From: Caldilinea sp. CFX5
GTDB lineage: Bacteria > Chloroflexota > Anaerolineae > Caldilineales > Caldilineaceae
Length of the DNA: 64,000 nt
Assembly: GCA_021405325.1 (NCBI GenBank)
Contig: QWII01000026.1
Coordinates: 32,798-96,797, forward strand
Reading direction: 5' to 3'
Below, in pieces: positions 60,204-64,000 of the stretch. How positions within the stretch are numbered: position 1 is the stretch's first letter; each line of letters opens with the position of its first letter. The notes beneath the pieces are model-generated. The model saw only the letters and a list, made by a program, of their open reading frames with translations, ran no database searches and was not told the DNA's origin. Made by a program: the position numbers and the translations under genes.

Positions 60204-60623
60204 ATGGCAGCGGATGTCACGTTAACGATACCGAACCATTTATTCAACCGGGCCAAGCAACTGACTCAACGGCGCCGCACGCAAGCTGTTGATGAATTGG
60301 TCGATTTACTGGATCAAATTCTAGCCTCTGCCGACCAGCACGAAGTTGGTCCAGAAGAAGAGGATGAGATCCTGGTAGATCCTGAAGTTGCTGACGAGAT
60401 GCAAGCATACATTGCTATGCACCCGCGTCTGAAGAAAACACATTTGGGCAAACATGTCGCGATTTATGGGGGTAAACTCGTCGATACAGATGAAGACTAC
60501 GATGCGTTGACCAGACGGATTGATGCACAATACCCCGACCGCTTTGTGTGGATCGCGACAGTTGAGGAAGAGCCAATCAAAACCTTTGTCTTTCGCTCAC
60601 CGCGTCTAGAAACGGTTGGCTAG
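60204..60623 (+). CDS. DUF5678 domain protein
   Basis: 139 residues. The first 45 residues (ADVTLTIPNHLFNRAKQLTQ) look like a small antitoxin-type N terminus. The C-terminal LGKHVAIYGGKLVDTDEDYD and VWIATVEEEPIKTFVFRSPR is the DUF5678 domain. Genes of this family usually sit directly before a retropepsin-like gene, as here (3-bp gap). AAGGGAAAT precedes ATG 60204, and an extended -10 promoter lies upstream. An earlier in-frame start near 59709 runs antisense through the binding-protein gene and is rejected. Confidence 0.82.
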   Translation: MAADVTLTIPNHLFNRAKQLTQRRRTQAVDELVDLLDQILASADQHEVGPEEEDEILVDPEVADEMQAYIAMHPRLKKTHLGKHVAIYGGKLVDTDEDYDALTRRIDAQYPDRFVWIATVEEEPIKTFVFRSPRLETVG

Positions 60624-60626
60624 CGT

Positions 60627-60995
60627 ATGGTTTACACCTACGATTATGACCTGACCTATGTACCGGCCATGCCGATGGTAACGCTGGCTATCGGCAAACC
60701 TGATGCCGCAGCGACCTTCACCCTCTCTGCGCTTGTCGACTCCGGCGCTGATGCAACCATGATCCCGATTCGTTATCTCCAACAGATAGGGGCGATCAAA
60801 CGGCAGCTTGTCTTTATTCGGACGGTTGCCGGCAAACGGGTGGGCGCTCATTTGTATACCGTCTCCCTACAGTTCGCTCATTACAACCGCCAGCGCATTG
60901 AGGTCGTCGGCAATCAAGCGACGACGGAAGCGATTATCACCTTCTCATGTTCAGGGAGTCAATGGCGCAAGAGCGTTTATCTTTGTGGCGTATAG
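60627..60995 (+). CDS. Retropepsin-like aspartic protease, C terminus altered
   Basis: 122 residues. The catalytic motif ALVDSGADATMIP (Asp about residue 38) and the flap-like region RTVAGKRVGAHLYTVSLQF belong to single-domain retroviral-type proteases, which act as dimers. After EVVGNQATTEAII the expected LGRDVLN segment is missing and the last ~18 residues (FSCSGSQWRKSVYLCGV) look unrelated, so the 3' end has probably been lost or shifted. Three bases separate it from the DUF5678 gene; translation is likely coupled. Confidence 0.72.
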   Translation: MVYTYDYDLTYVPAMPMVTLAIGKPDAAATFTLSALVDSGADATMIPIRYLQQIGAIKRQLVFIRTVAGKRVGAHLYTVSLQFAHYNRQRIEVVGNQATTEAIITFSCSGSQWRKSVYLCGV

Positions 60996-61559: not shown

Positions 61560-62543
61560 CTACTCGTGCAGAGCAATCTGCCCAATTTGTGAAGTTTGAT
61601 AGGGGCGATAACAGGGCAGCCGGGGCAAATGCTGTGTCGCCGCCAGCAAGCCCTGATAAGTCAATGCCGGGAGCAGTTGACCGCTGTCAATAAACGAACA
61701 GGCTTTGACCACCTTCTCCTCGCTGATCGACACAAACCAATCATTCGCCCCACAACCCATATCGCTGCTGCGCATTCTAGGGGGCGGTGGCTGACAAGCG
61801 GTCAACCGAATGGCGTTCAGCGCGTTCTCGACGCCCAGGCTCTTGATAAAGGCGGCGACCTCAGTTGCCGACAACGACTCCGCAGCGAATTGCAGGCCAA
61901 AACCGGCGGGCAACATGGTCAGCAACAAAATGTCGTGGTAGCCGGCTACGACAAACTGCGCAACCGCCTGGCGACAAGCGTCCAATTGGCTGCGCCACAG
62001 CAACAAATTGATCCCCACCTGACTGACGCTTTGGCGACAGCGGTCGGCTCTGGCGATGATGGTCGCCGCCTCGTCGGGCGTGTGACAGGAGAGACGCAGC
62101 GGCAGATCCGGCAACCGTTCAACCTGGAGGGCCGGAATCCCGCTCGTCGTAAAGGTCAACGCCAGGGCAACGCGGCCATAGAGCGCGTTCACGAGGTCAT
62201 AAAAATCCTTGCCCGCCTGTGGATCTGCCCACAACGTTGGCTCGCCACCGCCCAGCATGACGCTAAAGACATTGTTCTGGTCCAGGTCGGTGATAAAAGC
62301 GAGCAATTCGTCGTAGCGCCAGTGAGTCGTCCCCACTTTGGTCGAAGAAGCATAGCAAAACGGACAGCCCTTGTAACAGCGCCCGGTAATGGCAATCGAG
62401 ACGTTCAAAGGCTGCCAGCGCTCCGCTTTGACATCGGTGTCCAGCACATTGAGTCCCGTCGCCGGGAAATATTGCCATAGCCCCAGGGGTGTTGGGGCGG
62501 ATTTGCCATGACCCATTGGCGCCATTTGACGCAACTGCTGCAT
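61560..62543 (-). CDS. Radical SAM protein with C-terminal cysteines
   Basis: 327 residues. ITGRCYKGCPFCYASS carries the CxxxCxxC cluster (Cys56, Cys60, Cys63) and GGGEPT near 98 the SAM-binding loop. Toward the C terminus Cys264 (DMGCGAND), Cys282 (VVKACSF) and Cys311 (LPCYRP) resemble an auxiliary-cluster region of the SPASM type, although shortened. Such proteins modify peptides or proteins. The ATG at 62543 follows AAGGGTAACT and lies 2 bp after the stop of the 180-residue gene, so the two are translationally linked. No small peptide substrate is obvious nearby. Exact role unknown. Confidence 0.85.
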   Translation of the reverse strand: MQQLRQMAPMGHGKSAPTPLGLWQYFPATGLNVLDTDVKAERWQPLNVSIAITGRCYKGCPFCYASSTKVGTTHWRYDELLAFITDLDQNNVFSVMLGGGEPTLWADPQAGKDFYDLVNALYGRVALALTFTTSGIPALQVERLPDLPLRLSCHTPDEAATIIARADRCRQSVSQVGINLLLWRSQLDACRQAVAQFVVAGYHDILLLTMLPAGFGLQFAAESLSATEVAAFIKSLGVENALNAIRLTACQPPPPRMRSSDMGCGANDWFVSISEEKVVKACSFIDSGQLLPALTYQGLLAATQHLPRLPCYRPYQTSQIGQIALHE

Positions 62544-62545
62544 AG

Positions 62546-63088
62546 TTACCCTTCCCAATGATGACGCCAATCTGGCCCTAGCTCTAATTCTTCTCGCCGT
62601 TCTTTGGAAAGACCATAATAGAGGCGCGCCAGTTCAGCCGCCAGCAACACATCCCCCTCTTCATCGCGATCGACAAAGACAATGGCCGCCTCCGGCGTAC
62701 CGCCCTTGAGCAACAGATCGCAACATTCGGTGGTCGAATAGGTGTTGGAATCGACGGACAGACTCCAATCATCTTCGTCCAGCCGGGAGGAATCGTCTGT
62801 GATCTCGTCACGCTGCACCTGAACCACTTCCCGAATGTGTTCCTCGCTGGATGCTGGGTAGAAATGAAAACCAGCAGGCAGCAGGGAGATGAGCGTTAAC
62901 GCCGCGTCAGTGAACTCGCCATAATCATGCGCAAGCGCCGGCCCACCCAAAATATAAGGGCCGCCACCATCAGCCACATAGAGCGAAAAATGGCCCACGT
63001 CCCCATCGGGGTCGAGATAGAGAAAATTGACCGTACCGGAGTGATTGGTTGGTTGGTTAAACCAGACAAGCTTTGGCATTGGTGTCAT
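62546..63088 (-). CDS. Unknown acidic protein between xisI and the radical SAM gene
   Basis: 180 residues, strongly acidic, no signal or membrane segment. Regions: GTVNFLYLDPDGDVGHFSLY, then PYILGGPALAHDYGEF, DDSSRLDEDDWSLSVDSNTY, CCDLLLKGGTPEAAIVFVD and a basic-acidic end. I know no family for it. It starts 13 bp after xisI ends and stops 2 bp before the radical SAM start, so it is part of the operon and could be a partner or substrate of that enzyme (inference). ATG 63079 (MPKLVWFN) is an alternative start with better spacing from AGGAAAGG. Confidence 0.7.
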   Translation of the reverse strand: MTPMPKLVWFNQPTNHSGTVNFLYLDPDGDVGHFSLYVADGGGPYILGGPALAHDYGEFTDAALTLISLLPAGFHFYPASSEEHIREVVQVQRDEITDDSSRLDEDDWSLSVDSNTYSTTECCDLLLKGGTPEAAIVFVDRDEEGDVLLAAELARLYYGLSKERREELELGPDWRHHWEG

Positions 63089-63101
63089 CCTTTCCTACTG
63101 C

Positions 63102-63446
63102 TCACGTCACCGCAAATTCCGTATAGGGGCGGACCGATGGATGGTGAAAAGCCAATACAATGTCTTCGGGTGGCACCCCTGCCTCTAGTAGGTCAGTGGC
63201 AATACCATGCTCGGTGCCGTCAACTTCAATATAGAACTTATTGTTATGGAGACGCACGTAAAGGGCTGTGTTCCACACATGCTTCCGATCGGCCCAACCG
63301 ATGGTGTGGAGGAGATAGTGTTCCCGTTCATCGTCAAAAACAAGAAAGGTTTCAACGCCCTCCTTCTGATGCCGCTTTAGTAACTCGGCGTAGCTTTGCA
63401 ATACCCGTTTAATCAGCGCACGATATTCGTCTAATTTTCGATCCAT
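63102..63446 (-). CDS. xisI: XisI family protein
   Basis: 114 residues, the full family length. MDRKLDEYRALIKRVLQSYA is followed by YLLHTIGWADRKHVWNTALY, VRLHNNKFYIEVDGTEHGIA and the ending ILAFHHPSVRPYTEFAV, standard for XisI (PF08869). In Anabaena XisI and XisH control excision of the fdxN element together with the recombinase XisF, which is absent here. GGAG precedes ATG 63446. It overlaps the xisH reading frame end by 16 bp. Confidence 0.92.
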   Translation of the reverse strand: MDRKLDEYRALIKRVLQSYAELLKRHQKEGVETFLVFDDEREHYLLHTIGWADRKHVWNTALYVRLHNNKFYIEVDGTEHGIATDLLEAGVPPEDIVLAFHHPSVRPYTEFAVT

Positions 63447-63853
63447 TCTGTGATCTCCTTTGTTTCGGGATTCACAACCAGTAGGCGAACTTTGTAGTCT
63501 TGGAGCAACATTTGAATCGCTTTACTTCCCATGAACGTGTTATAGGCAATATCGCTGGTTGCCAAATATAGTTTGTGTTCCGGCTCAAGCCGCCGCAGAA
63601 AACTAAGGTAGACTAAATATTAACCGAGCGCTTCTTCCAAATCTTCCAGTACAGAACGGCGGATAAAACTTTTGATTTCAACGGCAATTTTTTCCAACCC
63701 CCGTTCTGCGCCCAGTAAGCTGCGTTGAGCGCCCAAATCAGGAAAGACGCTTTTGTCTTCATAAGAGAGCGTCAACGGATCATCTGTAATTGTCCACCCG
63801 TCATTTACTAGCGCTTTGCACACCGGCTCGTAAATCAGATCCTTTGCCGCCAT
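63431..63853 (-). pseudogene. xisH: xisH interrupted by one in-frame TAA
   Basis: From ATG 63853 (GGTGGA five bases upstream) the frame reads MAAKDLIYEPVCKALVNDGW, then VFPDLGAQRSLLGAER and KIAVEIKSFIRRSVLEDLEE with a PD-(D/E)XK-type Asp and E-x-K. At 63620-63622 TAA replaces the Gln usually found in the (G)QYLVY segment. Translation past it gives YLVYLSFLRRLEPEHKLYLA and the normal end EITEWIEN, stopping at 63431 inside xisI. One C-to-T change would restore the gene. The catalytic residues lie before the stop, so a short product might retain some fold. Confidence 0.88.
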
Positions 63854-63991
63854 TGATTCCACCATTTTCAAAAAGATGAATTTTGAGGTTAGTATACCAT
63901 AATCTAGTTACCGTAGGGTTTGAAAGAAGTGGACAATATCCCCACTCTTCTGATATGGTCAGAGTGCGAAAAAGATCATAATCAGGAGGGA

Positions 63992-64000
63992 ATGATGAAT
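63992..64000 (+). CDS. Start of a gene leaving the window
   Basis: AGGAGGG at 63984-63990 is followed by ATGATGAAT at the window edge. The ribosome site is strong, and the position is divergent from xisH. Only two or three codons are visible, so no product can be named. Confidence 0.35.

Follow-up and report, generated by a model that had tools for sequence, protein, structure and literature searches.

A radical-SAM enzyme and a partner protein with an N-terminal His-Ser motif form a conserved gene pair in distantly related bacteria

Introduction

To our knowledge, few radical S-adenosylmethionine (SAM) enzymes act on a fixed motif within a folded protein. The anSME-type maturases act on a C/S-x-P-x-R motif and have a longer C-terminal SPASM domain, which is recognized by a pattern of seven cysteines. 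The substrates of SkfB, SuiB, and EpeE, which are maturases of ribosomally synthesized and post-translationally modified peptides (RiPPs), are short precursor peptides. Here we describe a pair of genes from Caldilinea sp. CFX5 (GCA_021405325.1) that encode a radical-SAM enzyme (P0001) and a 180-residue protein (P0002, “the partner”) with an N-terminal His-Ser (HS) motif. The pair lies within a minus-strand locus at positions 61560-63853 of a 64,000-nucleotide stretch of contig QWII01000026.1, which we will call the window. A first-pass annotation had combined the pair with the upstream genes xisH and xisI. We find that the pair recurs in distantly related bacteria, and that XisH and XisI do not accompany it where this could be tested.

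If the enzyme modifies its partner, as we propose below, then the pair would work on a folded protein, as anSME does. Maturases of the anSME and QhpD types are its closest known counterparts. However, the enzyme does not belong with anSME: it has only four conserved C-terminal cysteines, instead of the seven of SPASM, and its client would have an N-terminal HS loop and has no match in Pfam. Unlike the substrates of the RiPP maturases, the partners are 175-351 residues long, and the enzyme scores just 23.2 bits against the SkfB model (cut-off 300 bits). The pair is similar to the His-Xaa-Ser (Hxs) system in that its radical-SAM enzyme is associated with a protein that carries a His/Ser motif, but our pair has HS and then G or M in place of H-x-S repeats. 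This comparison is via HxsC only, for which the enzyme scores 24.4 bits (TIGR03977; cut-off 267.9 bits). The enzyme also differs from the viperins, as it is linked to a protein partner and has four additional cysteines conserved in its C-terminal part; it scores 15.6 bits against the viperin model NF038283 (cut-off 180 bits).

Results and Discussion

The enzyme and its partner

The enzyme belongs to the radical-SAM superfamily (PF04055, 32.2 bits; cut-off 29.5 bits), and it is far below the cut-off of every one of the 24 NCBIfam families listed for it. The CxxxCxxC motif that the first-pass annotation pointed out is present (C56, C60, and C63). That annotation counted three C-terminal cysteines, but four are conserved: C250, C264, C282, and C311. 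These four and the SAM-cluster cysteines are invariant in a 27-row alignment (A4), and the four are conserved in both branches of the enzyme family. (Three short matches, P0054-P0056, were left out of the enzyme alignment A2; A4 also leaves out P0031, P0052, and the enzyme of locus L005.) The C-terminal part of the predicted structure is partly of low confidence. The four cysteines probably hold an auxiliary Fe-S cluster, and the enzyme may be of the twitch type, in which a short C-terminal domain binds one such cluster.

The partner has no match in Pfam, NCBIfam, PADLOC, or PHROGs, which agrees with its initial description as a protein of no known family. The structure predicted for it shows a fold that covers most of the chain, with a predicted local distance difference test score (pLDDT) of 86.8, and the PTNHSG motif lies in a lower-confidence loop between strands at residues 6-10 and 19-25. 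The N-terminal feature that is common to the Chloroflexota-type and Desulfobacterota partners is W-x3-P-(T/S)-(N/D)-H-S-G (alignment A3). A3 has 28 rows, and D28, P78, L149, D173, and W174 are likewise kept in at least 90% of them. Within the 23 partners of alignment A1, HS is followed by G or A in all except P0007. P0007 and the enzyme P0031 are encoded on contigs of one length, 57,454 bases; P0007 lacks the histidine of the motif, while P0031 has a deviant C-terminus that lacks the last cysteine. These deviations are probably due to sequencing frameshifts or read errors, and we retained both proteins in our counts. (A1 and A3 omit three short partner matches: P0024, P0027, and P0028.) With 180 residues, a confident fold, and conservation along its length in the 23-row alignment, the partner does not look like a RiPP precursor, which would be a short peptide with a conserved leader and a variable core.

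The pair is conserved in Chloroflexota and Desulfobacterota

Relatives of the partner and of the enzyme tend to be found on contigs of equal size. Of 24 contig sizes for partners and 29 for enzymes, 14 are common to both (including 475,292, 134,495, 57,454, and 21,074 bases), and 13 of these 14 have a common source. One pair of relatives has consecutive locus tags (R3A44_38080 and R3A44_38075); it is on the contig of 134,495 bases, which, like that of 475,292 bases (U0350_44305), is from Caldilineaceae. Searching genomes with the enzyme alignment gave six loci, and in five of them (L001-L005) a homolog of the partner is directly upstream of the enzyme. The sixth (L006) has a weak relative of the enzyme and no homolog of the partner.

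The Desulfobacterota enzymes are 33-36% identical to P0001, and their partners are more diverged (21-24% identity). When we compared the Chloroflexota-type alignment A1 to the four Desulfobacterota partners (A9) with hhalign, LVWFNQPTNHSGTVNFL aligned to LIWYGNPSDHSGAYHVI, and none of 200 column-shuffled controls reached the score. An ordinary profile search with A1 gives these partners only 3-7 bits. In one class, with 389 genomes, enzyme and partner were detected in an identical set of four; A3 includes Desulfobacterota rows, so detection of these partners by profile is partly circular. As judged from these sequence comparisons, the two-gene pair is real, ancient, and found in distantly related bacteria.

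A distant branch with HSMD proteins

In the phylum of genome G001, we found matches to the enzyme (E ≤ 1e-20) in 5 of 377 genomes, namely G001 and four genomes with more distant enzymes. All four of the distant enzymes adjoin a protein with the N-terminus AAHSMDTxW(F/Y)xVDxxGx(V/I)xxF, which we will call the HSMD module. The enzyme profile A10 had hits in 7 of 183 genomes from one order and 3 of 35 from another, and a 47-column profile of the module (A7; E ≤ 1e-8) had hits in precisely those 7 and those 3. The rows of A7 are from G240, G304, and G325 and the rows of A10 are from these three and G038, so four genomes match by construction. The other six of the ten genomes supplied no row to either profile. 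At the six new loci, the module protein adjoins the enzyme in four and is fused to it in one; at L057, the enzyme runs off the end of its contig and the module is at bases 28-156 of another contig.

The arrangement of the two genes varies. The module is upstream of the enzyme on the same strand at L022, L023, L024, L051, and L052, and downstream of it at L053; the genes are tail-to-tail at L054 and head-to-head at L025. L056 (1492-2778, plus strand) encodes an in-frame fusion of 428 residues with a radical-SAM domain and the HSMD module. The fusion lacks the last of the C-terminal cysteines, and its module is placed after the third. That adjacency survives rearrangement, together with the fusion, argues for a direct functional link.

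Within the first set of loci, an HS protein is beside the enzyme at all nine distinct loci that score at least 80 bits to A2, and at none of the ten that score lower. (The pattern P-x-x-HS(G/M) flagged eight of the nine; L023, with AAAHSMD, was added by eye.) Five of the seven enzyme-linked HSMD proteins that we tested (L022, L023, L051, L052, and L054) have a hydrophobic tail of the membrane type, with a Kyte-Doolittle mean of 2.7-3.2 for the best 19 residues. This tail is absent from all four HSMD proteins that are away from the enzyme (L035, L036, L037, and L059) and from the partner in the window (1.2).

In two related genomes, the HSMD protein is preceded by a gene whose product has SNHSWGRAIDLRYF and HRNHFHIDIG segments (L022:3-485 and L024:3-446). 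This product is presumably similar to extensin/M15 peptidases.

XisH and XisI appear to be unrelated neighbors

XisH and XisI are excision factors of the fdxN element, and the two genes upstream of the pair belong to these families. The first-pass annotation described the families as known only from the cyanobacterial fdxN element. This is too narrow: according to an excerpt of one study, Thiomargarita and Beggiatoa, which are not cyanobacteria, have xisHI but no xisF (PMC4853749), and an excerpt of another lists XisH and XisI among the domains of predicted injection-system toxins (PMC11297309). Neither excerpt mentions the enzyme-partner pair.

The genes here appear to lie outside of the conserved unit, and xisH is broken. 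Although it was initially taken for an open frame, an in-frame TAA splits it into pieces of 77 and 62 residues. The two halves match positions 1-76 (92.3 bits) and 78-133 (46.4 bits) of PF08814 (cut-off 25 bits), and they align to positions 2-78 and 81-139 of the solved XisH chains 2inb and 2okf. By these alignments, xisH is an otherwise normal gene with a single stop codon, which would make it a fresh pseudogene or reflect an error in one base; we see no reason to suspect an alternative genetic code. XisI is intact (114 residues) and is far above the cut-off for its family (25 bits). The G+C content climbs from 45.3% in xisH and 49.3% in xisI to 54.1% in the partner and 58.2% in the enzyme (56.7% for the entire window), and it is 36.7% upstream of xisH, at the edge of the window (63854-64000). 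The climb hints at separate origins for these genes.

Using tblastn, we compared the halves of xisH and three XisI proteins to the window and to 66 fetched loci, and only the window itself matched. A whole-genome search for XisI (not XisH) in the five genomes behind L001-L005 found it in three, always on contigs other than the pair's, and did not find it in the other two. At least 2 kb upstream of the partner is assembled at three of these five loci (L001, L003, and L005). Among the best 120 of 321 matches to XisI, three contig sizes coincide with those of the pair: the window's own contig (96,797 bases), and contigs of 1,065 and 1,069 bases whose sources differ. Thus, none of the other 119 relatives listed is convincingly on the same contig as the pair. 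In Chloroflexota, the context of xisHI was judged only from contigs of equal size, using the longest contig per cluster, so coverage of this phylum is incomplete.

The first-pass annotation held that the four-gene arrangement would be a local accident if other genomes placed xisHI and the pair apart, with no association above chance. Across the 66 loci, the five genomes, and the XisI relatives listed, that is what the linkage looks like. With xisH interrupted, XisHI absent from the fetched related loci, and the closest relatives on differing contigs among the matches listed, we rejected XisHI as a member of the system.

Proposed function of the pair

The enzyme and its partner are associated across phyla, with genome-level concordance in the distant branch and with conserved cysteines and a conserved motif. 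The conserved pairing, and the concordance of module and enzyme in the distant relatives, give good support to the initial suggestion that the 180-residue protein serves the enzyme as partner or substrate. The reaction, the direction of action, the role of the partner as substrate, its HS loop as the site, and the content of the clusters are inferred. We propose that the functional unit is a two-gene module in which the enzyme modifies its dedicated partner, and we give this proposal about an even chance of being correct. The enzyme would reduce SAM at the CxxxCxxC cluster and generate a radical, with a second cluster probably held by the four C-terminal cysteines. Most likely, the radical would serve to modify the partner in the exposed (P)xxHS(G/M) loop or beside it, which would yield an altered side chain or a crosslink required by the folded partner. 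Upstream, xisI (intact) and xisH (broken) would be unrelated neighbors.

Several observations weigh against this proposal. The bodies of the HSMD proteins (n = 13) have a mean identity of just 25%, as compared to 64% for their modules. There are three further module proteins in G240 and one in G771 that are not beside the enzyme. When 235 genomes were searched more loosely, four weak partial matches to the module (E = 6e-4 to 9e-6) came up in genomes without a match to the enzyme, besides G038 and G240. The window-type and HSMD-type partners match over only some 25 residues (5% probability and E = 0.008 by hhalign). (No column shuffle reached that score, and PTNHSG is in register with the HSMD motif.) The hhalign comparison of A9 to A8 leaves the motif unaligned. 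Finally, the pooled exact probability for the concordance (1.8e-17) ignores the kinship between genomes, and many genomes had only part of their first-look candidates scored.

Some of these observations would fit another explanation, in which the partner is a non-substrate subunit (for scaffolding, specificity, or electron transfer) and the enzyme acts on another protein or peptide that the HS module brings to it. A compact, conserved N-terminal module on variable bodies is what we would expect of a docking element, most of the partner chain is folded, and additional HSMD proteins exist away from the enzyme. But in L056 the HS module is fused directly to the enzyme. Also, when we inspected L001-L005 and L022-L025 by eye, the only further gene to recur next to the pair was in L022 and L024, which are close relatives, so we see no other substrate. 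We consider this explanation to be fairly unlikely. It is quite improbable that the enzyme synthesizes or changes a small molecule, as MoaA or viperin does, with the partner as a second subunit or as the user of the product: P0001 is far below the cut-offs for MoaA (19.6 bits; cut-off 284 bits) as well as viperin, and the conserved surface loop of the partner would be left unexplained. In a further reading, the four genes form a single defense, toxin-antitoxin, or excision operon; the first-pass annotation suggested a defense, modification, or toxin-antitoxin-like system. Their tight spacing on one strand fits with this, as does XisH, which we take to be nuclease-like (its 77-residue half shows the residues D...ExK). 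Nevertheless, we view a four-gene operon as very improbable, given the interruption of xisH, the lack of XisHI at the fetched related loci, the lower G+C content of xisH and xisI, and the closest relatives of XisI and of the pair being on different contigs (among the matches listed). Furthermore, PADLOC reports only partial, weak matches to pVip and Cas56g, and no catalogued anti-phage defense system.

Returning to modification of the partner by the enzyme, we suggest, tentatively, that the pairs represent an undescribed class of radical-SAM protein maturation across several bacterial lineages. A four-cysteine enzyme would rewrite the N-terminal His-Ser loop of otherwise variable proteins, some of them with membrane tails, and would form a protein-derived cofactor or a crosslink, with folded proteins and not peptides as its targets. 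As a rare enzyme that is detected only in genomes that have one particular motif protein, it offers a clean and testable enzyme-client pair and a candidate for new chemistry at His or Ser. In addition, the analysis corrects the view of XisHI as a participant at this locus.

Features of the locus

The four minus-strand stretches are located where the first-pass annotation placed them (if xisH were read through, it would finish at 63431), and the spacings it gave are right: xisH and xisI overlap by 16 bp, and gaps of 13 bp and 2 bp precede the partner and the enzyme, respectively.

Table 1. Features of the locus, by position in the window
Feature	Position	Strand	Evidence
xisH remnant: 77 codons, TAA, 62 codons	63431..63853	-	halves match PF08814 and XisH chains 2inb/2okf
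TAA stop, in frame, within xisH	63620..63622	-	
xisI, intact, outside the conserved unit	63102..63446	-	PF08869, 125.2 bits; 2nwv_A, E = 6.8e-27
HS-motif partner P0002, 180 residues	62546..63088	-	model ma3b927b806a1, pLDDT 86.8
PTNHSG motif of partner, residues 13-18	63035..63052	-	alignments and model
Radical-SAM enzyme P0001, 327 residues	61560..62543	-	
CxxxCxxC of enzyme, residues 56-63, SAM-cluster binding	62355..62378	-	
Four conserved C-terminal cysteines of enzyme (250, 264, 282, 311); probable auxiliary Fe-S cluster	61611..61796	-	

Nearby on the plus strand (60204-60995), the window encodes a DUF5678 protein and then a retropepsin-like aspartyl protease (gag-asp_proteas, 23.7 bits, which is under the cut-off). 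At L002, the gene directly 3' of the radical-SAM gene (1731-2309) also looks retropepsin-like by eye, which is probably a coincidence.
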